Assembly: GCA_002730485.1 (NCBI GenBank)
Contig: PCAH01000022.1
Location: 1-18,232 of the forward strand
Source: Dehalococcoidia bacterium
GTDB lineage: Bacteria; Chloroflexota; Dehalococcoidia; UBA3495
Direction: 5' to 3'
DNA: 18,232 bases
Shown: piece by piece, positions 1 through 18,232 of the stretch
Layout: each line of letters opens with the position of its first letter
Position numbering within the stretch: position 1 is the first letter of the stretch
The notes under the pieces: model-generated
The model's input: the letters and a program-made list of their open reading frames with translations, nothing else
What the model was told of the DNA's origin: nothing
The model's database searches: none
Position numbers and translations under genes: made by a program

Positions 1-78
1 CCGGCCCCACGGGCCGGCCCCACGGGCCGGCGCCGGGCCGGCCCCACGGGCCGGCCCCACGGGCCGGCGCCGGGCCGG
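1..78. repeat. GC-rich palindromic intergenic tandem repeat
   Basis: Two complete 37-bp copies (1-37 and 38-74), with a third starting at the end. Each copy is built from two kinds of unit, GGGCCGGCCCCAC (13 bp, twice) and GGGCCGGCGCC (11 bp, once). The units contain perfect palindromes (GGGCCGGCCC, GGCGCC), so the array could fold into hairpins on either strand. It is cut by the left window edge, so its full length is unknown. It lies beyond the 3' end of the PAQR gene. The 79-196 spacer is AT-richer and I see no gene in it. The array could be a 3' processing element, a recombination site or a plain satellite; the sequence does not say which. Confidence 0.85.
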
Positions 79-196
79 TGTGTAAAATCTTGTGCCCGTG
101 TAGATGTCGACAGAGCAGCTGCCTATTAAGCCCACCAAGACGGTATGCGGCATGTATTCCGTTCTGATTGTCTTTAAGTGCTAAGCGTCATGATAA

Positions 197-1222
197 TTAA
201 TATTTTAAATTATTAGAAAATGCCACAACATACTCACTTCCTATAGACGTTACTATAGTTGCTGAAACCGCGAGAATGTGCCATAGCGCATGTGATGTAA
301 TAACCCAGCCTCCGCAGACACCTGGGTTCTTGTTGTAACACACGCAGCTAGGTTTCTTGTCATTTTCAAACCACGCGTCAGGGTAAAGAATAAAGTTGTC
401 AAGGATCATTCCGCTCACCAATATGGTTGTTCCCGCAACTCTTGATCCAACAAAAACCCATGCGCAGTCTTCTTCTAAGTTTTCAAAAGCTAGCGTTGCC
501 ACCAAAATCCAGGAAAATGATAACGCCGTACCGGCGGCGGCGCGAAGGCTGCTGTGCTCCAAATCTGTGTTTGTTGACCTAGCAATTCCAAGGTTACATT
601 TTGTTTCAAGGTATGCAAGGCGCGTCTCTTCCACTGTTAAGGTAGTCCGCCTGATCGCAAAGAATAGTAACAGGATAATCATTGCAATGAACACATCGGA
701 TACTGCTTGAAAGCGCAAACCTTCAAGGTTGTTGGAGACTATCGCGAGGTCAGACAGAGTGCCAAACGCAATCCCGATGTAGATTCCAAAGTAGTCAAAG
801 AAACGAGTAACAGTCGACCAAAAGGGGTTAGCCGAATAAATGTGATAAATGGAAGAAAGTGTAAAGGTGATTACGAATGAAATGTAAGACAGTGCAGCAA
901 GTTGTGATGACAGCGTTCCAATTGTTCCATTCGGCGTCAAGGGTCTTATAATAAAGTAAAGCAGGTATATCAGAGCCCCAAAAACATGTGTCCAAAAGTT
1001 TGCTCTTTCTACATGACCAGTGGGGCCGATGAAAGAGTCGGGGGAAGGGTCCTCGACCAGATTAACGCAAGCAACGCGCCACCAAATGTATTTAGTGTCC
1101 TTTATTTCGTATTGCTTAAAGCCGCCACTCTTTAACCCGGGTTCATCTTGCTCATCACAATCTTCACAGATGGATGGTATGGATTGTGGCACCAATGTTA
1201 CTTTTTCAGGGAACTTGAACAT
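197..1222 (-). CDS. PAQR / hemolysin-III family seven-helix membrane protein
   Basis: 341 residues from an ATG at 1222. About seven hydrophobic segments lie near residues 77-95, 107-126, 143-162, 174-190, 229-247, 254-279 and 308-327. The family signature is present: E72-x2-N-x3-H79 at the start of TM1, SSIYH ending in H127, FDYFGI with D143, and SHALWH with H311 and H315. In solved PAQR structures the equivalent His, Asp and two C-terminal His residues bind a zinc ion; members include adiponectin and membrane progestin receptors and bacterial hemolysin-III proteins, and several have ceramidase-like activity. The N-terminal 70 residues are hydrophilic with three Cys and are probably non-membrane. 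The ligand or substrate cannot be told from sequence. A good 5' splice-site match (GTGAGTATG) lies just before the stop, so a spliced C-terminal extension is possible but not needed. The gene is divergent from the plus-strand gene at 1312 across an 89-bp spacer. Confidence 0.85.
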   Translation of the reverse strand: MFKFPEKVTLVPQSIPSICEDCDEQDEPGLKSGGFKQYEIKDTKYIWWRVACVNLVEDPSPDSFIGPTGHVERANFWTHVFGALIYLLYFIIRPLTPNGTIGTLSSQLAALSYISFVITFTLSSIYHIYSANPFWSTVTRFFDYFGIYIGIAFGTLSDLAIVSNNLEGLRFQAVSDVFIAMIILLLFFAIRRTTLTVEETRLAYLETKCNLGIARSTNTDLEHSSLRAAAGTALSFSWILVATLAFENLEEDCAWVFVGSRVAGTTILVSGMILDNFILYPDAWFENDKKPSCVCYNKNPGVCGGWVITSHALWHILAVSATIVTSIGSEYVVAFSNNLKY

Positions 1223-1311
1223 CGATGCTCTTCACTTACTCTTTTCCTTTACTGTGCTTATCCCGCTAGCGCGCGGTACAATGTACGTGTCGATACGTGG
1301 AAGATTGTGTC

Positions 1312-1890
1312 ATGACACTGACATTGAAACGTTGCGTCGCTCTGATAGGAATTCTTCTAACTATCATATCATTCTCACGTGTCGCTGTTTTGTTTCTGGA
1401 AGCTCTTACAGAAGTCCGGTCGGAAAGGTTGCAAGATTCTGAACTTCTGGAACTGTGTAAACAAGGAGCAGCACGTGGTTCAATGAAGATGCGAGCAGCT
1501 TGCCTTCAGGCTCAAGCTGATAGAGCATCTCCAGTTGTTCTGAAGGCAATCCTACGCGCCGTATCTACTGCCTTTGCAGATTTCTCAGAGTCCGTATCAT
1601 CACCAGGAAAACTTATGGTTGTTATACTATTCGTCCTTTCGTCGTTATTCCTGCCTATACAAGGATGGATTCGGGCGCTTGTACCAACCGAGGAAGTGGT
1701 GGAGGGCCTTGGACACGTTGTGGTGTTGGCAGATCGCGTACGCAAGAAAGGACTTGGACGACAAGGCTCGTCTCGTGGTTTGCTTACAAGTAATAAACAC
1801 ATCACTGTGCCGTTCGATACACTGTCAACAACCCGGGACATCGAAGAGTCATTTATAGACATCGACTTTTTACACGAAAAGCGCGACTAA
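1312..1890 (+). CDS. Small protein with two predicted membrane segments, function unknown
   Basis: 192 residues from the first ATG of the frame; the frame is open a little further 5' but only through a GTG. A hydrophobic segment at about residues 8-29 could be a signal anchor. A second lies at 101-119. Between them is a loop (residues 45-100) with regularly spaced Cys and charged residues (ELCKQGAARGSMKMRAACL, then ADRASPVVLKAI) that looks constrained and helical. The tail after 120 is hydrophilic and ends in an acidic stretch (EESFIDIDF). I do not recognise the family. It shares an 89-bp divergent spacer with the PAQR gene and converges on the 379-residue gene with 48 bp between stop codons. 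A membrane role beside a membrane receptor-like protein is only suggestive. Confidence 0.72.
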   Translation: MTLTLKRCVALIGILLTIISFSRVAVLFLEALTEVRSERLQDSELLELCKQGAARGSMKMRAACLQAQADRASPVVLKAILRAVSTAFADFSESVSSPGKLMVVILFVLSSLFLPIQGWIRALVPTEEVVEGLGHVVVLADRVRKKGLGRQGSSRGLLTSNKHITVPFDTLSTTRDIEESFIDIDFLHEKRD

Positions 1891-1938
1891 TCCGTATTGT
1901 TTTGTAGAGTGACTTTTCAAGCTTGTTAAAATAATAGT

Positions 1939-3078
1939 TCACAAACAGCTCTTAAAAATGTTAAGAAGTGTATCGTAAATCTCTCTGTATGCATATTCGT
2001 TGCAATGTCCCTCTGCCATCAAGACTTCGAGACGCTCTCTCGCTTTCCAGACTTCTGCTCTTGTGCCGCTCATTCTCTCTGTTGTTTGACCATGCACCGA
2101 ACTCTGTGTGTCATCTTCTTGCTCCACATAGCTTGACTCTTCGCCCGATTCTTCGCCCGATTCTTCGCCCGATTCTTCGCCCGATTCATCTCCAGACTCC
2201 TCGCCTGACACTTCTCCACCCGTAAGCTCTTGCGGAAACTCTCCTGCGTGATGATCCATAGTAGACACGTCTCTGCCTGTGACTGGGTAGAGCGTGACTT
2301 GGTCGTTTGTGACTTGTTGGAGTCTGATGTATTGTAGTACCGGCGTGGATAAGAAATTCTGCATCAGCGAATTGCTGAATTTATCAATTCGACAATGAAA
2401 GCAATAATAGGCGCGAGGGCATTGATATCCCAACATTGACATTTCCGCAGCGCAGTCCGCGGACAATCTCTCGGACGGCGAGAAACCCAAAGAAATCTCA
2501 TCAACGGCTTTTTTTACTTGCCACAACAAAGCCGCGCCATGGTAAGATTCGTTGCGCATGTCCCACGAACCTTGGAAGAATATACCTTGCCTTACCCATT
2601 CGAACTCTTCCGTCCAAGTGGGCTCTTTCCATACGCGATCAAACACTACAGCCAAAACAAACGCCAGCTCTCTGTGTTTTGGATATTGGAAGTTGTACCT
2701 GTTCCATGTTCGGTATATTGACGAAGCGTTTATCAGTAACGTAGTCAAGCCGTAAGGTCTGTCCAGTATCTTCCGTATGCCAACAGCAATGCCGTTGTGC
2801 CACGAAAGGTTCATTTGTGCACGTTTACGACGGGGGTCTGCCAATGTGAAGAGGACGAACGTGTAAAACGACAAGAACTGCGACTCCGAAAGGTCTGCTG
2901 TAACCGCGACGGGCCAGTCAAAACACAAAGGCGTAAAGGAATTCGGTGAAGACGCATCGCTACCCCCATTGCAATTGATTGTCATAAATATATCCTGATC
3001 TGTGATGCCGTACATCAAAACACGATTCTTTGCGTCCCATACCAGTGCTTCGTCTATTTGCAGGTCATGCGCATCCAT
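1939..3078 (-). CDS. Unrecognised 379-residue protein with acidic Ser-Gly-Glu repeat
   Basis: Starts at an ATG at 3078 and stops with TGA at 1939. Residues 1-265 look like a globular domain, rich in aromatic residues (for example FDWPVAV, RTWNRYNFQYP, FEWVRQGIFFQGSW), with no signal peptide and no convincing membrane helix. A cysteine cluster at 220-229 (CPRAYYCFHC) could bind a metal. Residues 288-323 are a low-complexity acidic linker built on repeated S-G-E-E units. The C-terminal part, about 339-377, is predicted helical (AEVWKARERLEVLMAEG). I recognise no family. The long uninterrupted ATG-initiated frame with a non-repetitive core supports a real gene. It converges with the gene ending at 1890. 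Confidence 0.75.
   Translation of the reverse strand: MDAHDLQIDEALVWDAKNRVLMYGITDQDIFMTINCNGGSDASSPNSFTPLCFDWPVAVTADLSESQFLSFYTFVLFTLADPRRKRAQMNLSWHNGIAVGIRKILDRPYGLTTLLINASSIYRTWNRYNFQYPKHRELAFVLAVVFDRVWKEPTWTEEFEWVRQGIFFQGSWDMRNESYHGAALLWQVKKAVDEISLGFSPSERLSADCAAEMSMLGYQCPRAYYCFHCRIDKFSNSLMQNFLSTPVLQYIRLQQVTNDQVTLYPVTGRDVSTMDHHAGEFPQELTGGEVSGEESGDESGEESGEESGEESGEESSYVEQEDDTQSSVHGQTTERMSGTRAEVWKARERLEVLMAEGHCNEYAYREIYDTLLNIFKSCL
2134..2208 (-). repeat. 12-bp tandem repeat encoding S-G-E-E units
   Basis: Within the 379-residue gene. The plus strand shows consecutive near-identical copies of TCTTCGCCCGAT, flanked by diverged copies (TCATCTCCAGAC, TCCTCGCCTGAC). The period is a multiple of three, so copy-number change keeps the frame; it encodes SGEE/SGDE units. 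The inner copies are identical at the DNA level, which suggests recent slippage expansion. Confidence 0.9.
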
Positions 3079-3166
3079 TTCTGAAGGAGCCGACGAGGTG
3101 AAAGCAGCGAATTGAGTTTAGTCAGACGCAAAGCGAGTAGTGTTACACACAACTGTGCTTTGTAGG

Positions 3167-3254
3167 GTCGGAGCCGGTGTCGGCGCCGGTGTCGGCGCCG
3201 GTGTCGGCGCCGGTGTCGGCGCCGGTGTCGGCGCTGGAAAGTCGGCGCTGGAAA
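3167..3254. repeat. GC-rich intergenic tandem repeat (GTCGGCGCCGGT)n
   Basis: One variant 12-bp copy (GTCGGAGCCGGT, 3167-3178), four perfect copies of GTCGGCGCCGGT (3179-3226), then two 14-bp derivatives GTCGGCGCTGGAAA (3227-3254). Each 12-mer has the palindromic core CCGGTGTCGGCGCCGG across the junction, including GGCGCC. The array lies upstream of the 379-residue gene, in the spacer that also follows the giant gene. It shares the GGCGCCGG core with the array at 1-78. Short frames through it encode only Arg/His or Gly/Val/Ala runs and are not genes. Confidence 0.88.
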
Positions 3255-3273
3255 GTCTGTATCCCTGCATGGA

Positions 3274-3287
3274 TTTTTATAAAATAT
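3274..3287. promoter_or_regulatory. TATA-like AT-rich element
   Basis: TTTTTATAAAATAT reads as a TATA-box match on both strands (TATAAAATA on plus, TATAAAAA on minus). It is about 195 bp upstream of the 379-residue gene's ATG, with the GC-rich array between, and about 23 bp beyond the giant gene's stop. It could be a promoter element for the former or an AT-rich 3' end signal for the latter. No AATAAA or TGTAA polyadenylation signal was seen nearby. Confidence 0.3.
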
Positions 3288-3309
3288 CGAATTCAAAACA
3301 CCCTTACCT

Positions 3310-6300
3310 CTACAACAAAACACCTGTTCCAGCACGATCTGAAAGATAGCCCCAGCGCCCCGTGTAATGCGTTAAAATCGAGCTCTCCGTGGATATCAGC
3401 AAACAGCACCCAGCATCGTCTATTTCAAAAGCGTCTATGTCCATTCTCTCTGCATTATCGTGTGCAATGTCGCAGCATTGTTGCTGCGTGAGTTGGCAGG
3501 GTTCGCGCGAGACGAGGCTGTCACTTGTTGAAATTGAACGGAAGAAATAGTGTTTACTGAAGGCACATTCGTGTCCCTGCGGTGCCGTATCCGGGTTCTG
3601 CAACGCGGGCAGTGGAGGAGGATACGGCGGGCGTGGCGGAAGCTCTCCGTAGCGCGGCGATAGCGACATCTCCTTGATCTCTATTTCGCGGATCCAGAGC
3701 TGGCGGTATGATCCGGGAAGACTGATACGCACCCTGAGAGCGTCACCAAGGGCGTAGAGCTCGGCATCGGATGCCCGAGCGGACGCACACATATGCAGTA
3801 AAGCGCGGTCAGAAGTGGGCGAGGATGCTTCCGTCTGCGCAGCCTGAGACTGGCACGCGACCGGAGAGCCGTCACTCTTCTGTACGGATACCTCGTAGCC
3901 CTTACCACCGGTCGGTTCTGCAGACTTGAAGAAGAGTGAGGCGAGCTCCTCGTTGTCAGGAAGACGGATTCTCAGCCCCCAAAGGCGGTTCCCTCGCGAG
4001 GCTGGTGTCGAGGCAAGCACAATGTCCATGCTGGGGTTCTCGGTATTCTCAGCATCGGTGCCACAGTGTCGCGTTCCGGAAAGACAGCTTTCCGGAAGGG
4101 CACCACTGACGCACGGTAAGACTCCACTCGGTTGGTGATCCCCAAAGCATAGAGGCACTAACCCTGGGTCGGCACTTATCAGCCTTTGCTTCATGTCCCC
4201 AAGAGTCTCGGGTGTCACGTGGTACCCATCGGCGTACAGGGGGTCGAGCACGAGGGGCGGCGGCGACGGCGGCGACGGCGGCGACGGCAGAGGCGACGGC
4301 GGCGGCGATGGCGGCGGAGGCGACGGCGGCGGCGATGGCGGCGGAGGCGACGGCGGAGGCGACGGCGGGGGAGAGGGTGGTGGTGAGTACTCGTCTTCAA
4401 ATGGTACAGATATCTGCTGCTGAAGCACGCGAGCCTCAGGAAAGCTTCCCGTTGCCACCATCGAATCTACGTATGGTATATGGTAGAACTCCTCGTCATC
4501 TATTGAAGGCGAAGCCACTACTTCGGATAAGTCTGCCAGTTGCATGTCAGCATCAACGTCAACGTCTGTATCATTTGGTGGCATCACGTCTTCTGATAGA
4601 GTGCGACTTCTCTTTGCGGGGTAATACGCGACTCCAATCATCGGAATGCGTACCGTACTCAAGCGTAAGGAGGATACCGCCACCGTCAGAAGATTATTTG
4701 AAAGCGCGGGTAGCGGTGGAGGTTTCGGTGGAGGCGGAGAAAACGTTTGCGGGTCTGCCGGAGGGGGAGATGGTGGATCCAGAGCGTCGTAAAGCACGCT
4801 ACGAGTGATGGCGACCGCAAGTCGTTCACAGCGCGTGGTGGTGGTGAGGTAATACACCGACGTGCACGCCTGCTCCTCCATCGCCCGGATGGATGCCATC
4901 AGTTCCGATTGGGCCTGGACGTACGGCGGCGAAGGCGGGGGGTGCGGTAGCGGTGGGAGTGGATCGGGTGGAGGAGGATTGGGTTCCGGTGGCTTTGGCG
5001 ATGGCGGAGGCGCTGTGAGAGTGCGAAGCCACTGCTGCGACGGGTACAACTTGGGCTTTGAAAGAAGCCCAAGGTTGTCCTCGTAGCATCCCAGGGCGGC
5101 ATCGTCTTTGTAAGGAGCTTTCCAGCAGGCTGTGCCAGTGTATTCTTCTACGAGGCCCGAACAGCGGACTTTGGGAAGCAGCTCACGTCCGGTAAGATGC
5201 TGCAGGTTTGCAACAACGTCTGCTTCAAATGTTACCATGTAAGCTTCTCCCTGGTTTAGCTTGATTGGAGACAAAGATCTCTTAGGTGCACAGTTGACAC
5301 TGGGAAGTTCATTGCACATTTTGTTGTCAAAGACTGGAAGGTCGAGAAGGCGGTGCATGCCCGGACGCACAGACAGGTCGCTTGAAGACGTTATGTACAC
5401 AAACGATCGGAGATTGAGTCGGTGTCGCCGGTCGTCAATCTTTTCCTCTCCGCGATACCACGTCGGTACAATGAGACCATCAATGTCCTGCTTGCGTTTT
5501 GTGGGCGTATCATAAAGCGGAAGATCAAACTCGGGTGGGCGGGCGAGCGTGTCCTCGATGCTGATTTCCATTTCTGCACTGCAAAGTCTGTCGCGCTGCA
5601 ATGAAAAGGGTGATAGGTGCTTGCGCTGTCTTGCGTCGATTTCCAATTGCGTTCCCTTTCCACCCAAACCATTGCAGAACATTTGCATGGCAACGTCCTC
5701 GGGAGCAAATCCCTCGTGGCAGTTTGCGGCACCCAGGTAGGTGGACTGCATGGTCTCCAGGGATCCGTACCCGACGATGGGTGCAAATGTGTCAATCTCG
5801 TATCCACTTTTGAAGCTGTAGATGTCCTCGTGGTACTCCGGTTCAACTGGCACGCGGTAGCCTCCCACTCCTTGTCCGCAAATCGTTGCCATGAGACCAA
5901 GCGTGCTGTATTCCACCTCCGCGAGAGAGTCCTTGTCAAGACTCATCTTGATCTCGATCATAGCGTACAGGAGAAGGTTGCGGTCGTACTCCGAGACGTG
6001 CGCCCTGTCGTTGAAGTGAGGGTTTCCTTGGATGCTCGCCTGGGAGCGCGTGCCTGCGCCCGCCCGGCGCCGGTCGTCAAACAAGTTCCACAGTTCCTTG
6101 CACGCCGGACGCCATCTTCCAGTGTGCTTCGATTCCACGACACGCGCACCGATACCGTCTTTTGTCATTCCGTTCGAGGACAAGAACGCTTTCGTGATCT
6201 GGTGAGGTGTAACCTCGTAGTCGGCAATGTAGCGCCCAACGCTTGCGCCCATGCTCGAAGTGGCCACGTCCGAAAGCCGAGGGAAGAACTCCTCCAATTC

Positions 6301-7258
6301 CGTGCGCACCATCTGGAACCCGGCGGGGTCCGCGTCCACCAACACCTCGTACGCCGCGAGGGTCGCCGGAGGAGGCGGAGGCGGAGAAACATCGTACTCG
6401 AACCTGACTTTTGGAAGCTCGAAGTCAAATATGTCCACCTCGTACTGGAAAGACTCGTCCGCCTCCGCGCCCGGTGGACAACTCTCCTCAATTGTTGAAA
6501 AAATACAGCTGACGATTATCATATCCAGCGTCATCGCCGAAGCAAAAGCGGCCCCGGAGCATATGTCCTTGCGACTCTGCAGGTCCGGTCCCGAGTGGGA
6601 ACTGATCTCCACTTGTCTCATCAACTCGGCAAGCGTCGGGTCTAACACCTGAAAGCTCTCGCCAAACGCCTTGTTGAACTCCGCCTCTACCTCGTCGACT
6701 GTCTGATAGCCGCTGTGGAAGAGATCGTTGTACTCGATGAGCATGTCTTCGTTTGAGCAGATTTGGTGAACCCTCGCAAAGTAGCACAGGTTCTCAAGCC
6801 CAAACCGTGTTTCTTCGCACTGAGACAGTCGAGCGGCTTCTTCGTGAGTTATGGGACCTCCCTCGCAACGATCTGGCACCCATGTGGTGGGCCAACAGAC
6901 GCGGTTCAGGGGGCGTCCAACGTTGTCGAGTGGAAAAGGGAGGTTGTCCACAAAGTCGTTGACTGGGTCGATCACGATGTCGTTTACCAGGTCTTCGGCC
7001 CCCTGCTGTATCATATCAAATATGCGACTCATTAGAAGCTCAAATGGGTCGCCACCCTTGCACCTTACCATAGAGTTCGTGCTCACTTTGCGCCACATTG
7101 GCTGCAGCGTCAGTGCCATTTGGCAGACGCAGCCACCGAGACCAAATCTTCCAAAGCAAATCGAAAGCAACCTCACAACGCCCAGAACGTCCGCCCAGAC
7201 GGCGTCTACAATTCCGATGATGCTCGTAACCATATTAGAGCTACAATACTGATCGCAA
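3310..7258 (-). CDS. Exon 4 (last) of the giant gene: large helical module, proline linkers, C-terminal domains
   Basis: 1,315 residues to a TAG at 3310. It opens with a hydrophobic helical stretch (about 7100-7240, around SIIGIVDAVWADVLGVV) and a largely helical domain with scattered Cys to about 6400, which I do not recognise. Pro linkers follow near 6370, 4930-5010, 4690-4770 and 4250-4390. Between about 3665 and 3990 is a beta-rich segment (LWGLRIRLPDNEE ... LWIREIEIKEM) that resembles discoidin- or carbohydrate-binding-type domains. The last 90 residues form a Cys-rich module with QQQCCDIAHDN and DDAGCCLL, PAN/apple-like in appearance. No C-terminal membrane helix or GPI-type tail is seen, so the protein is probably released or wall-bound. 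Confidence 0.85.
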
Positions 7259-10200
7259 CTGTGAGCAGGGGGCGATAAGTAGGTCAGCACAAGCAGGGGT
7301 GTAATAGGGGTAAGAGGGTTCGAGTGTAAGCACTTACAGAGCGCACGTGGGAGGAGCACCGGCGCCGTGGAGCGAGGTGCGCTCGAGGTAACGGCACTTT
7401 GTTGAGCAGTCGCTTGGATCGGAACAGACGATAGCTGGCGTCACTAGACCGTCGCCATCGGAGTCTTCACCCGCCTCCACCAGCACACGCGGGTAAAGGA
7501 AGTTGCCTTCAATGGATGCGGTAGAAGAGTCGCCGTCCTTGATGTCGAGTTCCAGACCACAAAGGAACATGGAGACCTGCCTGTCAGCACAACCAAGGAC
7601 TCCGTCGACAACGGAGGCCATCGTTTGATCCTGGCATCCCTGGTTCATCGCGGAGTCCACGTCCACACAGATGCCATACTCTCCCGTTATGGCCTGTGTG
7701 GACGGGTCGGGGTCGAAGAAACTGCCAGATCCCTGCTCCAGATCCACGAATTTGATTTCTCCATAGTCTCCGGTAATCGCGACGTCGTAAAGCTTGTACA
7801 GTTTCTGGCACTGGTACCTGTCCCCGGTAAGAGGGTGCGCCGGACATCTCGAGTAGCAGTCAGAGTTGCGTCGGCAAGGCACTATGTATCCCGCGCGCGA
7901 GACCGGATTCCCAGTCTTTTGGTTGAATCCTGGAGTGAACCGGCCCATGGGCGAATTGCGCGCCTCCTTTCTGCAGGAAATGGAATCTCGCTGCACGTAG
8001 CCCTTGGGATTGTTGTGGCAGATGTGGTAGGCGTGCGCGGCCAGCCTCTCGGGAACCGCTATGTAGTTCTCGCCTCGTATGGCTCCGTGACTCGCCCTCG
8101 CCAACTGCCCCGCATCGGTGGTTTGCAAACAATTATTGAATCCGAGTTGGTCGCGCGCGATGGTGCACTTGACCACGCCTGCCGCGGCCTTGGCACTTCT
8201 GTAGGTGCACTGGCTGGTGCACTGCTCGCAGACCTCGTTGTTGCACGTCGCGTTGCGCGCGGAGATGTTGGCGCGGCACTCTGCCTCGCCCACGGATCCG
8301 TCTTCCAACACCAAGTCCCTGAACAGCCGCGACGCGCAATAGTATCGGTCTGGGCGTATCCACTCTTCGAGCTCGTAAATGCCAGCACGTATCGCCGTGT
8401 CAGCAATCGGCGAGCACTTCTTTATTTCTCCGGCCTCGCTGTAGCACCAAGGAGGAGCGTCGCTGAGGAGCTCCTCCGCTTCATCGCTTTCCGCCGCAGC
8501 GACGTTGTTTGGAGACCCCCAATGAGCGCAGAAACTCCCTTCTACGGCCTCTTCTGTTTTGTATCCGGCACAATGTGTGCCGTCTGCCGATATCCAGGGG
8601 TTGGGAGCCGCCTCGTAAGTGCGCCCGCAGAAGTGTGTTGCGCTTTTGATGCAAGGGCCTCCGATTTGTAACAACTTTTCCTCGACTGCCTTTTCTAGGG
8701 ATGATTGTTCTTGGCGCATTTCTTGCAGTCGAATGTCGAAGGCAACGGCGCGCGGAGGCGTTGGAGGCGCGAGGAGCCCCGGTGGCGTGCTAGGAAGCGG
8801 AGGCTCCTCGGGTGGTGGAGGAGCGTTGGGTGGACGATATGCGCTGAGGCCTCGAAGAGTGCGATCGAAAAGCTCAACCTGCTTCTGTTTGATTGTGAGC
8901 TTGTCCGTCAGCACCTTGAGCTCGCCCTGGAGTTCCTGCCCAATCTGGTCGCGCTTGTAGTTCTCCAGGATGATCTCTCCTATGGCGCAGTTCATCGAGG
9001 CAATCTCAAAGTCCGGGTTTTCAGACTTAGTGGTGGTGTAGTTTACAGAGACTCGCAACTCGTCGCTCAAGTCCCTACCAGAAGCCACCAGCATGTCTAG
9101 GAGCGCCTTTCGACTATCCGCTTCGATGAGAACAACCATGCAACGCGCCTGAAACTCCACGGGCTTCTGTTGCAAGTACTCGTCGTTGGGAGTACGATGC
9201 CCAACGCACTCCTTGTTTCGGTACAGCATTTCCCTTGTGGTTCCCGGCGCGGCGTGAATGCACTCCTGTGGGCGGTCCTCAAGCTGTCCAATCGTGACCT
9301 GTGCGCGCGAGTTGGACGAGTCGTACGGCGACGCGCGGTCTGAGCAGTCGGCTTCCTGCAGCCAGAGGCCCTGCGAACAAGGAACAAACAAAGGTGAGAG
9401 TAAGATGTACCACCCAATTGAACTTGAAGCCAGTTGTGTGAGTGTGGTTATGTGAGGGTTACAGGGAGGGGGGCAAGGTTAATGCATTGCGCACCTCGAT
9501 CAGTGCGGAGTCGGGGTAACCCTCGTCGCTGTCCAGAATTGCAATGGACCTTGCCTGCCACCCCGTGGCCTCGTGCTCCTCGATTATCTTGGCAGTTTCG
9601 CTGTTCAGCGGAAAGTAGATAAGTCGCGAAGCAAGGGTGCTTTCGATGGGCGGGAACCACGGCGACGGAGGAGGCGGGTTTGGTGGACTCGGGGGGGAAG
9701 GTGGGGGGTGCGGCGGCGGAGGGCTAGGTGGAGCATTTGGGGGTAGTGAAGGCGGTGGCGGAGGAGGCTCCGCGGGCGGAGGGAGTGGAAACGGCGAGGG
9801 TATCGACGGTGGAGGTGAAGGGGGAGACGGCCAGTCTGCCGGGGGAGGCGGCGGAGGCGGGGGTGGAGGTGGCGAGAATCTGGCGTCTGTAAAGTGCACG
9901 CACAGGCCCGGGCGGTGCCTTGGTGGCGCCGGTGGTGGACTGTTGGGGTTTGGCGGGGGCTCCGGCGGCGGCGGAGACGGTGGAGGCGGCGGAGGTCTGG
10001 GCTCTGGTGGAACGTTGGGCGGTGGGCTAGGGCCTTTTGCCAAAGACAGCTTTGGGCCACACCAACACCTGTTCATGACGTTCGGAAGTGCCGCTGTCCC
10101 GATTACATTCTCCTCCAATCCATAGCGCCCCACCTCGTGGCAGCGAAACGCGCACGAACCGCCATGGCGAGTCACAACGTGCCTGACGACGTCATCAAAC

Positions 10201-13200
10201 CCGTCACCGTCCAGGTCTACACACAAGATCTTGGTCGTGAATGGAAGCAAGTAATCCGGGTTTTGGTGGTCGTGGTAGGACCTCACCGGCTTGGCATTGC
10301 TGTACGCATTCGAAGAGCCGTACTCGTAAGCAACGGTCCACTGTCCCTCCCCCCCCGCAACCAGTTCCACCTGTCTGGTACTATCAGACGCTTGGTTTTT
10401 TAGATTGCAGAATGCCACCGAGTCGGTGCGAACGGATCCACCAAGCTCTTCCTTCGTTCTCTGTCCGGGGTACACGCCTCTCGAATGATTCTGGCCGGTT
10501 TGGCCGTTGTAGTCGTGACCGTATTCAGATTCGTTCTGTGACCAGTAGAATTCATTCGGAGCGTCTGCATTTGCAATCACCAGAAATCCATCCGCGTCTT
10601 TCATGTTGCCTCCCAAAACGTAAGACCCAGATATGGCAGTGCCCCTTTTGGGCTGCGCGTAGTGATCGGGACTAAATCCCGTTCTGGCGCTGATCACGGT
10701 GGGTGGGCTGTGCGCGCGGACGACGATCATGCTGGGAACTGTTGTGGACTCGCGCCCGTTGTCGATGAACCCAGACGTGGACGTTGCTGCGCTTGTTTTG
10801 ACAACCAGAGTCGAACCGTGGGCGTCTAGCACCACAAGGTTGTGGTTAGCATAATCCGAGTACGAGGTTACAACCTTCTTATTGTTTTCCACGGCAAATG
10901 GCAATCGGATCTTGAATTGGTACAAGTTGTCTTCCACACCATCAAATGTCACAGGTAAATAGCCAGTGTGTTCTGCAAAGGTCTGTTTTTTCAATTCCGA
11001 CGGCAGGCCATTGAAAACGGGGCAATATTGGGCATATGTTGCCGCACCTGTAACAAGAGTACAAAGAGTGGTTTCGGTTAGGTCCTTCGGCCCCCCTGAT
11101 GTGATAGTGCAACTGGCTCCGGGACAGGAATCCCAATCGTATTGATCGTCGTAATGGTTAAGGTCAACAAATTGGACACGGCTATCCATTGAAAGGCCGT
11201 GTGGCTTGCTGCTTCCACACTTGAAGAAACCACCGTCGTCGGTGAATTCGGAGACTAGGTTGCAACGTATCTGTGTTCCCGCTTTGGACGGTTTTATGGA
11301 CGCAAATTCCACCGCATCGTCGAATGTGTCGTACCGGGCCGGGTAAACAACTTCAAGGCATGTCCCAGAGTCGTAGCGTTTTTTATCAAAGCGTGCCGGA
11401 AACACAAAGCACTTTGGCGTCTTTCCTCTGAACAAGATGCATGCGTCCATCACGATGTCAAGTCCACTGTCAGTTGCGTAAACGTGCGTCATTGCCACGT
11501 CAACTACGCCATTGTCATTGACGTCGCCTATCCTTTGTGGGTAGTAGAAGATGGGGGTCTGGCCAGCTCCGGGTCTTTTCACTCCCAAAAACTCGCGTAT
11601 CTTGGCACTTGCCGTAGCATTGGAATAATCTTTCATGCAGTTGGGTGACATCTTTATGTCGAAGTTGTAACACGTTCTACCGTTGAAATTTTGACCACAC
11701 TCGTAGGATATCAGGTTGATGATGTGCGTCTTCAGGTCGTCTACGGTGCAATTCGGAGTCTGAACCAATTCCACGGGCATACTTTCCCACAAATTGGAGC
11801 AAACCTCATCACCCTGCACCTGTTTGCACGTAAACCTGCGAAGTATTTTTGTACCTCCATCGACGATGAAATTTTCACGATTGGTGAGGTAGTACGCATC
11901 AAACGAGAACTCCTCTCCCGGTTGGATTGCGGATCGCATGATGTACGCCTTGCCAGCGTCGTCCACAAACGCAATGTCCGGATACCCCTGACCGTCAAAG
12001 TCTACGACGTGCGCCTTCTTGATGACAAAAGAGCCGATCGTCACTGCAGTGACGTTGGAAAAGACACCAGAGCCATTGCCCGCGTAGAAGCGATTGCCGA
12101 CCAAGAGGTCTTGGTGGCCGTCAAGGTTAAGGTCGGCGGCCACAATCGACGAGCTTGTCTCCGAATCGAAGATGTCGTTTCCGATGTCGTGCTCCGTAAA
12201 GTTTGGCAAGGCGGGATTTAGGGCATTAGGAACCTCGCCCGAGTTCATCAGCGTGCTCGACATGTGGTTGGGGTGGCGAGCGACGTCGCAGCACTCGTGT
12301 TCTTCGGCACCGTCCTCGCAATCGTTTCCCGGAGTCGCGCTCCGGGGCACGTCGGTGTCGAAGTAATCGCACACGGTGACATTGGTGACGGGATCGACCT
12401 TGGGCATGTACTGCAGCTTGAACTCGGTCAGGTTGTTGCGGCACTCGGAGGTGGCGCTCATGAAGCCACCCATCGCCACGTCGACGCGCTGCGTGGAAAT
12501 GTCGTACGATTCCGCGAGGCGGCGGCCGGTTGGAGGAGGCGGCGGAGAATCGTTGCTTGTGATGAGGGGCCAGGCATGTCCCCACTCCGGCCAAGTGTAA
12601 ACTGACGGGCCGCGAAAAATCAATTGATCTGTTAAATCATTGGTTCGGTAAGCGGTTTCAAAGTCGATGCTGTTGTAGGGACAGTCCGGACTGCAAACAT
12701 TTGGATCGTTATAACCCGCGCACCTGGTCTCGCTGTTAGGAATATTAAATTGCGAACCGATGGTGTCTCCGGCTCCCCCTCTGAGGGCACAATCATCCGG
12801 AATCGATGGTGTACATCTTTCTGGGCACCATATGCAACGAGGAAGCGAGTATCCATCGTGAGTTTCTACGTGAGTGTCCAAGGCGGGGTTTCGTGTGCAA
12901 TGCGCTGATTGGTTTGCAAACGAATAGTTTGTGTATGGGGCGAAAATAGCCGAAGCACTGCAACCCGGCGGCCCCGTCGCCCACACAATCTCCCAACATG
13001 CATACCTTACCGGAGGCGGTGGTGGAGGCGGATGCGCGGGCGGTGCCGAGGGCGGCATGAGTGGCGGCGGATAGGGAGACGGTGGCGGGACGCGCCACGA
13101 CAGCACGGTTCCACCGATTGCGGCCAGCTTTGCGCCACAAATGCACGTCACGTCCATGTAGCGCTCATTGTCTCCCCACTGTTTTGGGTCGTAACCTTCG

Positions 13201-16200
13201 TCATTCGTAAGGCATTCGGGGTGCGCCGGCAGGCAAGCCTCGTCGTCGCCGTAGCGCCTCTCGTACATGCACCGTTCGAAGCAACCAGTCGCGGCCCGAT
13301 CTTCGTAAGGGTGTTCGCAACCCGAGTTGCACGTCTTGAATTGGTGTCTTGCCACGCAGCACTCGTGATCTTCCGCGGTAGTACAATCTGGGTACACCGC
13401 ACCAGAAGGCTGCCACTCCTCGTTTTGCAGCGTAAGTGACTTTGTGTTGTACATGCGGGTTGTGTCGAGACGCACCGTCAACGAGGGTACCGGTTTGTCA
13501 TCTGCACCCTTGGGACACTCGGGAGGCGTGCTGTAAACGTTACGGTGGACAAACTCCGGTGGCCATATAGTGCTTGCCACTGATTCTCCAGGGACAATCC
13601 CGTGATTCCACCTCCAGCAGTACGCGTTTTGGTCAAGGAAGAAGTCCGGTCCCAGATTGACACCGTTGATCCCTTTCACCGATTTTCCGAACGAGGTTGA
13701 GGGAAGGTTGGCCGCCGAGCAGACCATGGGCGGTGGCGGCGGGGGGCTCGGTGCCGCAGGAGCGTTAGGTGACGGGGGCGACGGCGGTGGGTAGCTGACG
13801 CTGCTGTTTAAGACCTTGTGCATCAGACGCACGGGCGTGAGCACATTGGTGAGGTCGTTGCTCGGCTTGCAAAAGTATGTGTTGGGTGGGTAGTTGTCGG
13901 AGTTGCCATCCTTGCCATCAAACTCGTTCCAGAAGACGCACACACTCGTTTCGGTGTGGCATGACTCAAAGTCGGAAGGGACTCTGGCGGCATACGCGTC
14001 TGGAGGCTCAAAGTGCGGCAGGTTTGTGACCCTTGAAGCGTGAGTGGAAAACCCCTTCCACAGGGTGTATTGCTGCTTGGAGCGTGTGGCGTGGAAAAGC
14101 AAGCAGCTTCCGGTGAGGTTGCTGCCGGAAATCGTTTCATTGTCCCAGATTCCCATCATGCCACCCACGACGTCTCGTTCCTTCATCAGGGCTCTGCATT
14201 CGTCTTGCGTGAAGCCTCTGCGCACTTCGTTCGGAACGAGGTGAAACGCTCTCAAAACATCTTGCGCAGGGAAATTATTGAAGCCGCGGTCGCCCGCCTC
14301 CGTGCCGGGGAAGGTGAGTCCCGCAAAGCCGACGCCGGCACGGAACGACCTCGTCTCCGCGGGGGACAGTTGATGCTCCTGCAGAGATGGCAGGCACTCC
14401 CAAGGGCACAAGGTCTCATGAAAAGTGCCGTCTGCCTCTAGCTCCCGCGCAAGCTCCAGCGCAGAGTCTACGGCACCTTCAAAAACGGGTATTCCGCCCC
14501 CGCAGCTTTCGATTCCACAGGTGATCTCAAACTTTCCATCAGAGTCTCTGTCCTGTGGGAACTCGTTGCCGTATGGGTGCCACGTGCGCCAATTGTTGTC
14601 GCTTGTTCCGGGCATCCCGGGTGGCCAGGGGTAGAGTGGGGGCGGAGGGGCCGGGGGTGGACTGGGTGGGTTCGGAGGCGGAGGGGGGTCAATCGGAAGC
14701 GCCCCCGCGAGTTGGTGCCACGGCGTGATCATGAGCTCAGCAAACGAACAGTCTTCAACACAGCCCTGTTCGCAATCTACCCCGTAGTCGGAGGTGTCTG
14801 TGGCACTGAAGACGGTCCCATTGATAGCCGAAACTCCGAGTTGGTCCTCCGACACGCTCCCGGGGCACCACGATTCCGTGTAACCATTCCACACAAAAGA
14901 ATCTTCTTGAGGATCGGGACGAGCATGAAGGCATGTGGACGCGCTGTAATAGACGGTACTGAAAGACGAGTTGTATGAGAATCGTTCGTCGTCAATGTCC
15001 GTGGCCAAGTTTTCGTGCCGGACGCATCGACACGTTCCTGAGGCGTGATCAAAGGAAAACGCGCTTATGTCCGCCAACGCGCAGTAGTCGACACATTTAG
15101 CCAAGGAAGATGCGTTGATCTCGTCGCACGGATCACCGCACAGATCGGGCGTAATCTGGATGCCGCTTCCGAAAGCCCGTTCGTAGTTCACCGTCCTGGG
15201 CACAAAAGTGCTACTCTCAGAGTTGCGATTTGTCCTCTCCACAAATCGCTGACGTGGGTGATTGGCGCGAATCAAGTAGATGTTTATGGTTTCTCCGAGG
15301 GAGCTCTCGGCATTCTTTCTCAGCCATTCCGTTGCGTCTGAGTCGGACGGAAGGCGGGGAGAAGACGTCTCGTAGCAGGAGCAGTTGGCCAGACTTGGCT
15401 GTATGTGCATCTGAAAGTAAGCGACCTGGTAGCGCCGAGCCGTAGACTCCAGGCAAGTCGATGCGCACCTCTCCTTCCACACCTCCGGCGACGTTGAGGC
15501 TTCGGGAAGGTCGCGCCACGCGTCGTGCCAGATGGGCACATTATGATTATTGTAGCAAGCAATGCACACATCGCACGCATCTTTCGAGTGTATGTTACAT
15601 TCGTCCGCATCTCCGTAGGTAGAACACTTGTGAGGTAGGCAGTCTTGTGGTGTACTGCACGACCTGCCTGAGTTATGCAAGCACAATCGTTTGAAGTCGG
15701 ATTTGCCACAGAACTCTTGGCCCACCGTTTCGTTACTCCACCCGGTTACATTGCATAGATCCTTGTAGCTCTGTGGAGGCGACGATAGCAAATGAAACTC
15801 CCTTCTTGATACGGCCGCGTGTCGCGCGCGCCACCCGTGCGCTATGTGCGCAACGCGCGAGGAAAGTGATGGCATGTCGACGTAGCGTTTCATTGAGCCA
15901 TTGACAAATCGCTTACCCGTCACATGGACTGTCCCACCTCGTCCCACAACGGCGTGGGCACTGTACAAGACAGTGTTTTCTGCCGGCACGGTCGCCATAG
16001 CATTGAGTGACATGTCGTTCCATTCGTCGCCCTCAGCTCCCTCTGAATCCCCGTAGCACGCGCACTCGCAGCGGTCCAGACCGGCGGGGGGAAGAGGTGG
16101 CGGTGGTGGAGGCTCAGGAGAAGGCGATGGCGCGTAGAGCGTGGGCACCCGTGGTGGCGGTGGCGACGGCGGCTTGGGCGGCGGCCTGGGAAGAAGCCCT

Positions 16201-18232
16201 CGTAGCTGCTGCAGTCGCCGGGACACCAATGGTGGACCTTTTAAGTGTTGCACGTACATGACACCACAATCGTGAAAATCAGTACCGAAGCCCGCGGACC
16301 CCCCTTGCGTCGTGTCGTCGCAAAAGTCGTTGAAGGCGTTTGATTCGGGAAGATTCGCAGTGAGGGCCAGCTCGTCTTGCCGAGCGCCGCAGAGGCGGCA
16401 ACTCGTACCATAATCACATTTAAACTCTCCATCCACCAGGAATGCGCCAAGGCCACCATCGGAGCACACTCTCCCGCCGTCTTGCTGGTAAGGGCACGTG
16501 TTGTTGCAAGACACGTGCGTGTACTGCGGCGGCGGTAAAGGCGGGCTGCTGGGGGGAAAAGGAGGGGGCGAAGGGAGGGGCGGCCTCAAGGCATCCGAGT
16601 ACGTGAGCGGTCCGTAGTCGACCCGGCGAAGGGGGCAATCATCTTTGTCATTCGCAAAACCGCAGATGGCGTATTCCTCGCCTTCGGAGTCCAACCCAAA
16701 AAATTCGGTTCCCTCGCCGCCATCTTCACATTGGTTATTCTTGGCGGTTGCGCATGAATTGTCGCCTATGATTGCGTTGCGTCCCACGTCTTCGCGGTGG
16801 CCACAAAGCGATACCTGTGCAACAATAACAGACACACACCGCTAAGCACTGCGCAAGGGCTGTGATGTATATAGTGCTGTGCAGTGTGTGGGTGAGATGA
16901 AGCGCAAACGCGGAGGCGAGTTGTGGGTCTCCAGCCACGGAAGAATTCAGAACGTCGATGGACTGCGGTACTTTACAACCCCGAACTGGCTTGGGTACTC
17001 CACTGTTTCAATCGGTATGAAGAAGCTATCCGTGCACCGTGTTGTGCATGTGCTCTTCAACGACCCCAACCTCGACGATTGGTTTCCAAAAGCACAGGTG
17101 GACCACATTGACCGCACCAGATCCAACAACCACAATGAGAACTTGAGGTGGGCGGACAGTACGCTGCAAAGTTCGAACCGGACTATGGCAGGCCGTTCAA
17201 ACAAGCGTGCAGCTGGTGTGACTGCATGGCATGTCGAGACCGACGTCGTAACCCGGCATGCCGACACAAAAGAAGCGGCGGAGCACACGGGTGTACACGC
17301 GACGAATATCACCCATTGCTTGGCCGGAAGGCAGATGAGTGCGAAAGGGTACGTCTTCTATCGATACATCAAGAACAAGGTAATCGAAGGAGAAGAGTGG
17401 CGACCAGTCGAAGGAGGCTACCAAGTATCGTCAGCCGGGCGCATCATGACGCCGACAGGAGTCGCGTACTTTCCCGAGGGTAAAGAAGACGGGTACCGGC
17501 ATGTTATGATCGATTATGTCCCGCGGAGCGTCCACATCCTCGTGTTGTCGGCATGGGAAGAGAGGCCATCCGACCACCACACCGTTGATCACATCAACCA
17601 GATCAAGTCCGACAACCGCCTCGAGAATTTGCGATGGGCAACGTCGAAAGAGCAGCGACAGAACCAAACGCAAAAGCCAGAGAGGATAACAAACGTCTGG
17701 GAATGCAGACGGGTGGGCGACAAAGAGTGGCAGATTGCTGGATCCACGTACGACGCTTGCAGGATGACCGGCGCAAAAGTTTCCGAAATTGCACACTGTG
17801 CCAGTCCGAAAAGTAGACACAAGACGACGCCAGGAAACGACGGAATCCGGTACGAATTCCGAAAGTACAAAGATCCAGACCAGGAAGACATTGAAGGAGA
17901 GGTGTGGAAGGTTGTGTGTGCTAGTGAGTGGGCTGAGGGAGGGAAGTATGCGCGTGTGATGGGTTTTAAATGATCGCGCGGCGCACCTGAGAACCATATG
18001 GGCAAACCGGTGGCCACACAGATCCCACGCCACCATCGCGGCACTCTTTGCCAGAGTAGATGCCATTCTTCAGACATCCGTCGGTAGCACCATTGAACTT
18101 GTACTCCGACAGTGGGGGCAGGGGCGACGGCGGGGGCGATGGAGGAGCCGGTGGCTCTCCGGGCGGGGGCGGCGATGGTGGGAGGGACGTTGCCGTGATG
18201 CTGAATGCGCGCAGGTTGCCCATCAAGTCGCG
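3310..18232 (-). CDS. Giant multi-exon, proline-rich, cysteine-rich FG-GAP surface protein (5' partial)
   Basis: One spliced gene, join(18232..17987, 16814..9495, 9370..7338, 7258..3310) on the minus strand. It yields 4,515 residues in the window and is open at the right edge. None of the open frames of exons 1-3 has a credible independent gene structure: the frames of exons 1 and 2 begin at TTG and GTG next to splice signals, and each ends just past a 5' splice-site match. All three joins keep the frame. The product alternates cysteine-rich modules with Ser-Pro-rich linkers, carries FG-GAP calcium-binding repeats and many N-x-S/T sequons, and has no clear C-terminal membrane anchor. This fits a secreted, cell-wall or virion-surface glycoprotein for adhesion or structure. 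The exact role is unknown. Further small in-frame introns cannot be ruled out. Confidence 0.8.
4250..4388 (-). repeat. Ser-Pro-rich tract (SPPP/SPPPP)n
   Basis: Imperfect 9-, 12- and 15-bp units of GGCGGCGAC/GGCGGAGGC type on the plus strand, encoding S-P3 and S-P4 repeats preceded by EYSPPPS and followed by LVLDPLYADGYHV. A hydroxyproline-type glycosylated rod is expected if the host modifies such motifs. The units are not identical, so the tract is under length rather than exact-sequence conservation. Confidence 0.85.
7259..7337 (-). other. Intron 3 of the giant gene (79 bp)
   Basis: The minus-strand 5' site is CTCT/GTAAGTGC, a full match to the consensus. A CTGAC branch-point candidate lies in TGTGCTGACCTACTT, and the 3' site is CCCCCTGCTCACAG/TTGCG. 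The junction splits a Leu codon (CT/T), giving PTCAL/CDQYCSSN, which continues the cysteine-rich style. Unspliced translation stops at the TAA inside GTAAGT. Confidence 0.9.
7338..9370 (-). CDS. Exon 3 of the giant gene: coiled coil and cysteine-rich modules
   Basis: 677 codons plus two bases of a split codon. The first part has two charged helical stretches likely to form coiled coils (about 8860-8960, around ELKVLTDKLTIKQKQVELF; about 8660-8750, around LQEMRQEQSSLEKAVEEKL), separated by a Pro-rich linker (about 8750-8840). The rest is rich in paired cysteines, with modules such as CEQCTSQCTY, CRRNSDCYSRC and CSDPSDCSTKC. One Asp-rich loop (DSDGDGLVTP, about 7440-7470) could bind calcium. 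It ends GCTCT before GTAAGT. No known family name can be given with confidence. Confidence 0.85.
9371..9494 (-). other. Intron 2 of the giant gene (124 bp)
   Basis: The minus strand reads GAG/GTGCGCAATG at the 5' site and CCTTGTTCGCAG/GGCCTC at the 3' site, with a strong pyrimidine tract. Removal joins phase-0 codons as PDSALIE/GLWLQEADC. Without splicing the upstream frame stops after VRNALTLPPSL, and the downstream frame has only an intronic ATG (MFVPCSQ) at its head. It has the same GTGCGC 5' site as intron 1. Confidence 0.85.
9495..16814 (-). CDS. Exon 2 of the giant gene: cysteine modules, FG-GAP repeats, proline linkers
   Basis: 2,440 residues in one open frame, flanked by CACAG at the 3' splice site and GAG/GTGCGC at the 5' site, both phase 0. 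In order: a diverged C-x-DGG module (about 16630-16760), Pro linker, a third C-x-DGG module ending CDYGTSCRLCGAR (about 16370-16480), a large Pro linker, a long Cys-rich section (about 14750-15800) with a WSC- or PAN-like stretch near 14960-15170, further Pro linkers near 14640, 13730, 13020 and 12530, two modules with the pattern EHECC-x-ARH (about 13345 and 12285), and FG-GAP repeats with Asp-rich loops (about 12090-12140, 11965-12010, 11480-11530, 10180-10220). It ends in the longest polyproline tract. Sequons such as NGS, NVT, NLT, NYS and NQS support passage through the secretory pathway. Confidence 0.85.
9640..10045 (-). repeat. Long polyproline / Ser-Pro tract
   Basis: Codes for runs of P interspersed with S, N and E, including an uninterrupted run of eleven prolines, broken once by a short non-repetitive segment (HRPGLCVHFTDARF). 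Such tracts form extended polyproline-II rods in hydroxyproline-rich algal wall proteins. On the plus strand the DNA is a long G-rich tract with many GGNGG runs. Confidence 0.85.
10180..12150 (-). other. FG-GAP (VCBS-like) repeat region of the giant protein
   Basis: Four calcium-binding loops of the D-x-[DN]-x-[DN]-G-x-x-D type are readable: ADLNLDGHQDLLVGNRF, VDFDGQGYPDIAFVDD, GDVNDNGVVDVAMTHVY and VDLDGDGFDDVVRHV. FG-GAP/VCBS blades build the beta-propeller of integrin alpha chains and many adhesins. The first two are adjacent, the others lie hundreds of residues apart, so either one large propeller with insertions or two incomplete ones is present. Confidence 0.75.
16865..16874 (+). promoter_or_regulatory. 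TATA box candidate for the intronic endonuclease
   Basis: TGTATATAGT, with TATATA at 16868-16873, ends 23 bp before the first ATG of the endonuclease (16897) and is the best TATA match in the 82-bp leader. The leader also has to hold the branch point and pyrimidine tract of the opposite-strand intron. A plus-strand promoter would let the gene be expressed independently of the host transcript, which carries it only as antisense. Confidence 0.45.
16897..17973 (+). CDS. HNH homing endonuclease with duplicated NUMOD4-HNH-NUMOD1-like units
   Basis: 358 residues from the first ATG; the longer frame begins at GTG. Unit 1: shortened NUMOD4-like segment (residues 8-28, ELWVSSHGRIQNVDG), HNH motif (VHRVVHVLF at 46-54; VDHIDRTRSNNHNENLRWA at 68-86), then a NUMOD1-like DNA-binding segment (about 122-156, with KEAAEHTG and CLAGRQMSAKGYVFYRY). 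Unit 2: NUMOD4 (165-190, GEEWRPVEGGYQVSSAGRI), HNH (VHILVLSAW; VDHINQIKSDNRLENLRWA at 229-247), and a more diverged helix-turn-helix-like segment (about 279-322). Residues 332-358 (IEGEVWKVV...) restart like unit 2's NUMOD4 but stop. The D-H and Asn positions typical of HNH nucleases are present in both units, although unit 2 has HI where unit 1 has the usual HR. Such proteins make sequence-specific breaks that copy their own gene into empty alleles. The gene is intact, antisense inside intron 1 of the giant gene. Confidence 0.92.
   Translation: MKRKRGGELWVSSHGRIQNVDGLRYFTTPNWLGYSTVSIGMKKLSVHRVVHVLFNDPNLDDWFPKAQVDHIDRTRSNNHNENLRWADSTLQSSNRTMAGRSNKRAAGVTAWHVETDVVTRHADTKEAAEHTGVHATNITHCLAGRQMSAKGYVFYRYIKNKVIEGEEWRPVEGGYQVSSAGRIMTPTGVAYFPEGKEDGYRHVMIDYVPRSVHILVLSAWEERPSDHHTVDHINQIKSDNRLENLRWATSKEQRQNQTQKPERITNVWECRRVGDKEWQIAGSTYDACRMTGAKVSEIAHCASPKSRHKTTPGNDGIRYEFRKYKDPDQEDIEGEVWKVVCASEWAEGGKYARVMGFK
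17987..18232 (-). CDS. Exon 1 in window of the giant gene (5' partial)
   Basis: 82 residues, open to the window edge (the frame already reads R-D-L-M-G-N at the border). It has a short strand-like end of an upstream domain, then a Pro-rich linker (about 18110-18185), then a cysteine module with the pattern C-x-DGG-x-G followed by CPYGSQ. The exon ends CTCAG before GTGCGC, a standard 5' splice site in phase 0. If unspliced, the frame runs on only six more codons to a stop (VRRAII). The true gene start is upstream of the window. Confidence 0.8.

Follow-up and report, generated by a model that had tools for sequence, protein, structure and literature searches.

The contig PCAH01000022.1 (assembly GCA_002730485.1, filed under Dehalococcoidia bacterium; positions 1 to 18,232 of the forward strand, hereafter the window) contains a giant minus-strand gene that is interrupted at 16815–17986 by an insert of 1,172 nucleotides (nt) with GT...AG ends in phase 0. 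This insert is probably a spliceosomal intron that carries a tandem-HNH homing endonuclease gene on the opposite strand; the enzyme would cut intron-free copies of a short coding motif, and repair would copy the whole intron in. An earlier note on the window, made from its letters, had likened the insert to a homing intron that relies on the spliceosome. As a mechanism, this description is well supported by occupied and empty loci among the relatives of the giant gene, including the contig L081 (PAUB01000044.1). The kind itself, however, is not new, since spliceosomal homing introns have been named 'shintrons' in Mirusviricota (Medvedeva et al. 2025, PMC12768974). The parts of the insert are as follows.

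17981..17986, minus strand: 5′ splice site GTGCGC, identical to the six bases that open the predicted intron 9371–9494
16815..17986, minus strand: predicted GT-AG spliceosomal intron, phase 0, 1,172 nt, its junction set by the continuous homologues P0122, P0123 and P0124
16897..17973, plus strand: tandem-HNH endonuclease gene, 358 amino acids (aa) from the first ATG or 364 aa from the GTG at 16879, with the stop at 17973
17497..17664, plus strand: HNH module 2, residues 207–262, with D237, H238 and N250 invariant in 12 sequences
17002..17178, plus strand: HNH module 1, residues 42–100 (364-aa numbering), with D75, H76 and N88 invariant in 12 sequences
16868..16873, plus strand: candidate promoter element TATATA, upstream of the HNH ATG and ending 23 bases before it
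16841..16846, minus strand: candidate branch site CTTAGC, also present in both HNH introns of L081
16815..16840, minus strand: 3′ splice region GGTGTGTGTCTGTTATTGTTGCACAG

The donor reads CAG|GTGCGC and the acceptor TTATTGTTGCACAG|GTATCG (also written TTGTTGCACAG|GTATCG). As in shintrons, the ends are of the spliceosomal type (here GT...AG), and the CAG|GT junction lies at the boundary that the homologues define. Among 104 GT/AG pairs tried around the giant gene, 46 keep the frame open, so that restoration of the frame is by itself weak evidence; the exact junction is fixed because homologous proteins run continuously across it. The window reads CPYGSQ|VSLCGHRED at this place, and the corresponding stretches are CQYGSQ-ISLCGHRED in P0122, CPYGSQ-VTLCGHRPD in P0123 and CDYGSS-HTLCGPRPD in P0124. 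P0122 is 85% identical to the window protein over 259 columns (VCQYGSQ-ISLCGHRED against VCPYGSQ|VSLCGHRED). The earlier statement that removal of the insert restores a continuous frame and a conserved motif is thus borne out by all three homologues.

It had also been claimed that an intact double-HNH gene fills about 92% of the insert in antisense, and this agrees with what we find: the HNH frame occupies 92% of the insert with 358 codons from the ATG at 16897, or 93% with 364 codons from the GTG at 16879. Two relatives, P0003 and P0004, likewise open with MKRKRGG, in support of the start. At 375 codons, the longest stop-free frame of the insert is longer than that of any of its 2,000 Markov shuffles (mean 154, 99th percentile 293, maximum 368 codons), although the best of these comes close. 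The Pfam matches of the protein are HNH_3 (2.1e-13, in two stretches), an I-HmuI NUMOD-like domain and NUMOD4, the last exactly at its cut-off, and the protein also matches PHROG HNH families. The signature of an HNH core is a D-H pair together with an N residue, and both predicted catalytic cores are intact. I-HmuI (1u3e) is the top PDB match in the fold search (6.0e-9) and in the sequence search (4.6e-9), the latter aligning it at module 1 and at module 2. The structure model of the protein has a mean predicted local distance difference test score (pLDDT) of 83.9 and a predicted template modelling score (pTM) of 0.52. PDB matches to Lck kinase (E 0.016–0.018) were taken as chance.

HNH copies that are 65–69% identical over 356 columns retain the motifs; in this comparison P0002, which is 99% identical, stood in for the HNH protein of the window. 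P0003, an HNH protein from metagenomes, shares 68% identity with the enzyme of the window. Viral collections yielded no close relative; a search of them with the HNH alignment gave at least 325 distant HNH relatives, 80 of which were kept. In the phage collection 255 records match the HNH protein, all below 60% identity, and six of them cover at least 80% of the protein. A search of IMG/VR with the HNH protein alone gave one pattern match, which failed confirmation.

The closest solved relative of the HNH protein being I-HmuI, one might think of an endonuclease-bearing intein or of an intron of group I or II that splices itself. I-HmuI-type HNH enzymes are usually carried by phage group I introns. 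This explanation is extremely unlikely, given that only 13 nt and 82 nt (95 nt in total) lie outside the gene and that the group I and II intron models of Rfam do not match the insert at gathering thresholds. At E values up to 10 there are four weak Rfam matches, none of them to an intron family. A hairpin formed by the final 86 nt of the intron does not reach significance (z −1.7; 10 of 200 shuffles equally stable). The HNH gene is on the plus strand and the host gene on the minus strand, which rules out an intein. We therefore rejected both a ribozyme intron and an intein, as the earlier note had done on grounds of size and strand.

To return to the spliceosomal homing intron, its mobility is suggested by the occupancy of the site among homologues of the giant gene. 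Two protein searches yielded 30 relatives, P0122–P0151 (4 in one and 27 at E up to 10 in the other, with one in common; the weakest is P0151, E 0.016), and the status of the site was called by reading their sequences. The junction is covered in 23 of the 30, seven (P0134, P0135, P0137, P0139, P0140, P0141 and P0149) not reaching it. Nine of the 23 are uninterrupted at the site (P0122, P0123, P0124, P0127, P0128, P0129, P0131, P0138 and P0142), 11 are interrupted (P0125, P0126, P0132, P0133, P0136, P0143, P0144, P0145, P0146, P0147 and P0151, with P0147 counted only if an upstream frame shift is allowed), and three break near the site rather than at it (P0130, P0148 and P0150).

These continuous homologues also bear on another arrangement, in which a free-standing HNH gene lies between two separate genes and nothing is spliced. 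The flanking reading frames are indeed separate in the DNA. However, P0122, P0123 and P0124 span the junction as one protein, the exon phases agree, and L081 shows the same arrangement twice in one gene, where removal of both inserts gives one open frame. Two separate genes are thus very unlikely, and we rejected them on account of the continuous homologues. The earlier note had proposed to compare related loci with and without the intron, and had named an endonuclease sitting between two separate genes in relatives as an outcome against it; nine of the 23 homologues run through the junction instead, and L081 is occupied by a related antisense HNH gene.

L081, from a bin labelled Opitutaceae SAT155, was among the 23 loci of a scan of genome contigs, with a match along almost the full length of the enzyme. 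On this contig a homologue of the giant gene is found with two antisense HNH genes. The insert at 6636–7867 (1,232 nt) lies at a codon boundary identical to that of the window, TACGGTTCACAG|GT...CCCACAG|GTCACCGAATGCGG (alternatively written GACTACGGTTCACAG|GT...CCCACAG|GTCACCGAATGCGGCCACCGC), and its HNH gene is 38% identical to the window's. The insert at 4927–6173 (1,247 nt) occupies the corresponding position in the motif that follows, TTCGGGACTCAG|GTGTGC...CCCCGCAG|TGCACCGCCTGCGG (alternatively GACTTCGGGACTCAG|GT...CCCCGCAG|TGCACCGCCTGCGG), and has an HNH gene 41% identical to the window's. Once both inserts are removed, an open frame of 290 codons reads FGCDYGSQ-VTECGHRSD and KCDFGTQ-CTACGVR. 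The non-coding 3′ ends of the two inserts have CATGCATATAC and TTAGCGCGCGC in common despite their different sites, an indication that the end of the intron moves together with the gene. Furthermore, CTTAGC is common to both L081 inserts and the window intron, and ATATAC, the minus-strand reading at the TATATA of the window, is found again in both L081 introns.

Some further features of the L081 genes were observed. The HNH genes at 5016–6167 and 6708–7880 have 17 of their first 18 residues in common (MKRPVSPSLDP[ND]VAPIKA), whereas the product of the first gene, P0005, shares 43% identity with that of the second; the near-identical starts hint at gene conversion of that end. The second HNH frame overruns its intron by 13 bases (7868–7880), so that its last codons overlap the host exon on the opposite strand. 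On another contig of the same bin, L120 (C4), the giant gene has a third homologue (7771–9261, plus strand), which runs through the intron site without a break. Its frame stops shortly past CPFGSM|VRRSL, where the motif occurs again further along the gene, as would be seen with a further intron at that place.

For relatives known as protein, the reading frame leading out of the exon and into the insert was decoded as antisense DNA, with every codon allowed, and scored against the HNH family and against shuffles. The three window frames that served as controls gave scores of 59, 75 and 113, with a top shuffle of 22.5. The read-through of P0143 decodes as an antisense HNH gene (125 against a shuffle maximum of 21, 0/200), and its decoded tail is compatible with P0003 at 53 of 53 residues, compared with 40 of 52 for the window and 44 of 55 for P0004. 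P0146 also decodes as antisense HNH in the profile test (41.1 against a maximum of 24.9, 0/200) and passes narrowly in a second test against single proteins (35.2 against 34.4, 0/60). Decoding of P0147 is weak, with scores of 27.5 (maximum 23.7, 0/60) and 21.8 (maximum 21.8, 0/100), and 15.0 in the profile test, where 42 of 200 shuffles were equal or higher. It was not significant for P0125, P0132, P0130, P0144, P0148 and P0150, and the remaining sequence of P0126, P0133, P0136 and P0151 is too short for it. One site is thus used recurrently, as seen in the DNA of L081 and by decoding in P0143 and P0146.

P0145 seems to represent a different state. Its 22-residue tail, VRRASFRTHCTIYIAPQPLRST, is compatible in part with the 3′ portion of the window intron (score 25.2; the best of 2,000 random segments reached 22.9), whereas it scores 10–13 against the small introns of the window and the L081 introns, and no HNH was decoded from it. 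Because the tail resembles the 3′ end of the intron and decodes no HNH, a short intron of roughly 100 bases lacking the gene is to be expected in P0145. In P0123, which is 88% identical to P0145 over 304 aa, the site is uninterrupted. Empty, filled and possibly emptied states are what a homing cycle would predict, the ones seen here being drawn from different genes or species.

A number of observations weigh against a mobile intron at this site. Among the 11 interrupted homologues, a well-decoded HNH is found only in P0143 and P0146, and weakly in P0147, whereas P0144, P0125 and P0132 are interrupted with no HNH detectable by decoding; the position of the intron may therefore predate the HNH gene. 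The donor of P0143 and P0146 reads GC, a minor donor, rather than GT. P0122, which diverges from the window on the upstream side of the junction, may be a paralogue. In the one comparable pair, the host identity (73% over 81 aa, window against P0143) is about that of the HNH proteins (69%, P0002 against P0003), and similar divergence of host and HNH would also be expected from vertical inheritance with losses. On the host tree the HNH carriers are neither clearly clustered nor scattered (49 of 500 shuffles as low), and its resolution is too poor to show transfer.

These points could be accommodated if an old spliceosomal intron had been colonised by an HNH gene as a passenger, the intron itself being immobile and the empty sites being intron losses. 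The interruption of 11 of the 23 site-covering homologues, the absence of a detectable HNH from the interruptions of P0144, P0125 and P0132, and the 99-nt in-frame insert of P0144, which belongs to a distant and fully supported part of the host tree, would all agree with such a history. It does not readily account for the non-coding 3′ strings that recur with the HNH gene at two sites of L081, nor for the probable short intron of P0145, which resembles the 3′ end of the window intron while its close relative P0123 is unbroken. We regard an old, immobile intron as unlikely, though a far more serious contender than self-splicing or two separate genes.

In the most likely course of events, the host transcript would be spliced and the insert would cost the host gene little, while the enzyme would be read from the opposite strand, presumably from a promoter of its own. 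Its likely target is the DNA encoding C-x-Y-G-[ST]-Q | x(2,3)-C-G-x-R, which it would cleave wherever the intron is absent; recombinational repair on an occupied copy would then bring the intron in. I-HmuI is a nicking enzyme; the two HNH cores in one chain might give a double-strand break here. Subsequent loss of the HNH gene would leave a short ordinary intron, perhaps as in P0145. A second copy of the target motif in the window gene (CDYGTSCRLCGAR) is uninterrupted. A wider proposal, which we offer tentatively and hold to be doubtful, is that the HNH intron homes into a short motif repeated along the giant gene, spreads from repeat to repeat and, once its HNH gene is lost, persists as a normal intron of about 100 bases, so that homing endonucleases would be a source of ordinary spliceosomal introns.

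An exact 11-base direct repeat, CGGTGGCCACA, was also found at 16795–16805 and 18008–18018 of the window, one copy in each flanking exon; with the intron removed, the copies lie near the junction on both sides. Half-sites for an enzyme with two cores are one possible explanation of the repeat, chance in the coding sequence another.

In anatomy and in its apparent way of working, the insert is a shintron as described in PMC12768974, the one paper among those found by the searches whose title or opening abstract describes such introns. It has in common with shintrons the spliceosomal ends, the lack of a group I/II signature, a nested HNH gene and insertion into particular genes; HNH genes account for 171 of the 334 intron-nested endonucleases of that report. 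Shintrons are found mostly in virion morphogenesis genes (64.1%), whereas the window insert is in a giant extracellular-type gene, and they belong to Mirusviricota, whereas the carrier of the window is only possibly a mirusvirus. The HNH gene of the window is antisense, and the words 'antisense' and 'opposite strand' are absent from the main text of PMC12768974. The present data also describe the site in both filled and unfilled form, a possible remnant lacking HNH, and a second site within one gene.

Other mobile elements are similar in part. I-HmuI, of phage group I introns, is the closest solved relative by sequence and by fold, but the window protein has two HNH cores, each of which aligns to the single 1u3e chain, and no ribozyme surrounds its gene. 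In nuclear ribosomal DNA (rDNA) of eukaryotes, group I introns may likewise have an endonuclease gene antisense to the host gene (PMC9548176); there, spliceosomal introns lie within the endonuclease gene of a group I intron, whereas in the window it is the entire element that the spliceosome would take out. Introners are groups of highly similar introns in one genome (PMC12768974). The similar intron ends at two sites of one L081 gene are introner-like; the endonuclease gene and the conserved target motif are not, and no family of near-identical copies was seen. The gain of spliceosomal introns is a long-standing question, and endonuclease-carrying introns offer a route at the DNA level. For shintrons, the case made in PMC12768974 is built on their presence in virus genomes. 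Here, a single site that exists empty, filled by HNH and possibly emptied of it, together with a second occupied motif in the same gene, makes the homing cycle directly testable.

The host gene is unusually large. When the exons are joined without the three predicted introns (16815–17986, 9371–9494 and 7259–7337), a single frame of 4,515 aa results, open at its 5′ end. The protein is of an extracellular type, with proline-rich (SPPP-rich) stretches, Cys-rich motifs and FG-GAP repeats. Its remaining parts are listed below.

17987..18232, minus strand: upstream exon of the giant gene, 82 aa, extending beyond the window
9495..16814, minus strand: downstream exon of the giant gene, proline-rich, with Cys-rich motifs and FG-GAP repeats
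9371..9494, minus strand: ordinary small predicted intron, 124 nt, opening with GTGCGC like the HNH intron
7338..9370, minus strand: exon of the giant gene, in the joined frame
7259..7337, minus strand: ordinary small predicted intron, 79 nt
3310..7258, minus strand: last exon of the giant gene, in the joined frame

The carrier of the window is likely to be a virus, probably a large DNA virus that uses the host spliceosome and possibly a mirusvirus. The PAQR-type gene and the 197-aa frame of the window recur together on two contigs of the SAT155 bin, C27 (L114; 31% and 58% identity) and C49 (L164; 33% and 47%). This bin has 39 contigs of 11–36 kb and twelve of more than 100 kb. A large virus is favoured because the linked small contigs are poor in Pfam matches and because the bin searches for kinase, WD40, RRM and actin-type genes gave matches only on contigs above 100 kb. 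Pfam matches (cut-offs 1e-3 or 1e-5) were found for 15 of the 73 small-contig frames scanned, which were chosen mostly by length, some of them overlapping or possibly spurious; seven of the 15 are HNH, GIY-YIG or PAQR. Most of the long frames scanned in the bin, which reach 4,310 aa, have no Pfam domain match. DNA polymerase B was found only on a contig of 228 kb. Membership in the bin is weak evidence on the carrier, and some of its small contigs may be bacterial.

The same anatomy could occur in a nuclear gene of an uncultured alga, which would make the element a cellular homing intron rather than a viral one. The giant gene appears to resemble that of an algal surface protein; its SPPP-rich, Cys-rich, extracellular-type product with FG-GAP repeats and its PAQR-type neighbour would suit such a host, as would the outcome of two pattern scans of 2.9 million IMG/VR contigs, in which no relative of the host gene was confirmed. 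Conversely, the proportion of small-contig frames with a Pfam match (15/73) is near the roughly 20% given for mirusvirus genes (about 60,000 of 295,521; PMC12768974), and the kinase, WD40, actin-type and RRM matches are confined to the contigs above 100 kb. An algal origin is accordingly possible, if less likely than a viral one.

No viral hallmark gene was recognised in the window or found by the bin searches that were run. The models for the capsid of nucleocytoplasmic large DNA viruses (NCLDV), the herpes-type terminase and the eukaryotic ribosomal protein L6e had no match in the bin, and likewise none in a control genome; a phage terminase model, which matched in 6 of 14 controls, had none in the bin. 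Searches of viral collections with the host-gene, PAQR and 379-aa proteins gave no relative, and an Rfam scan of seven loci gave no match. Two tRNAs were found in 41 loci scanned, both on C29. Up to about 0.6 Mb of the bacterial metagenome-assembled genome labelled Opitutaceae SAT155 appears to consist of foreign contigs, probably viral or eukaryotic, with frames of up to 4,700 aa. On C27 (L114), an HNH gene (9303–10652, plus strand) lies near a GIY-YIG gene (11456–12325, minus strand), and a second group of HNH proteins, 34–58% identical to one another, is present on C27, C9 and C42.

In the remainder of the window, a PAQR/haemolysin-III gene (197–1222, minus strand) stands back to back with the 197-aa frame (1297–1890, plus strand). 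GC-rich tandem repeats are found at 1–78, with units of 13 and 37 bases, and at 3167–3234, upstream of the 379-aa frame, with units of 12 bases.

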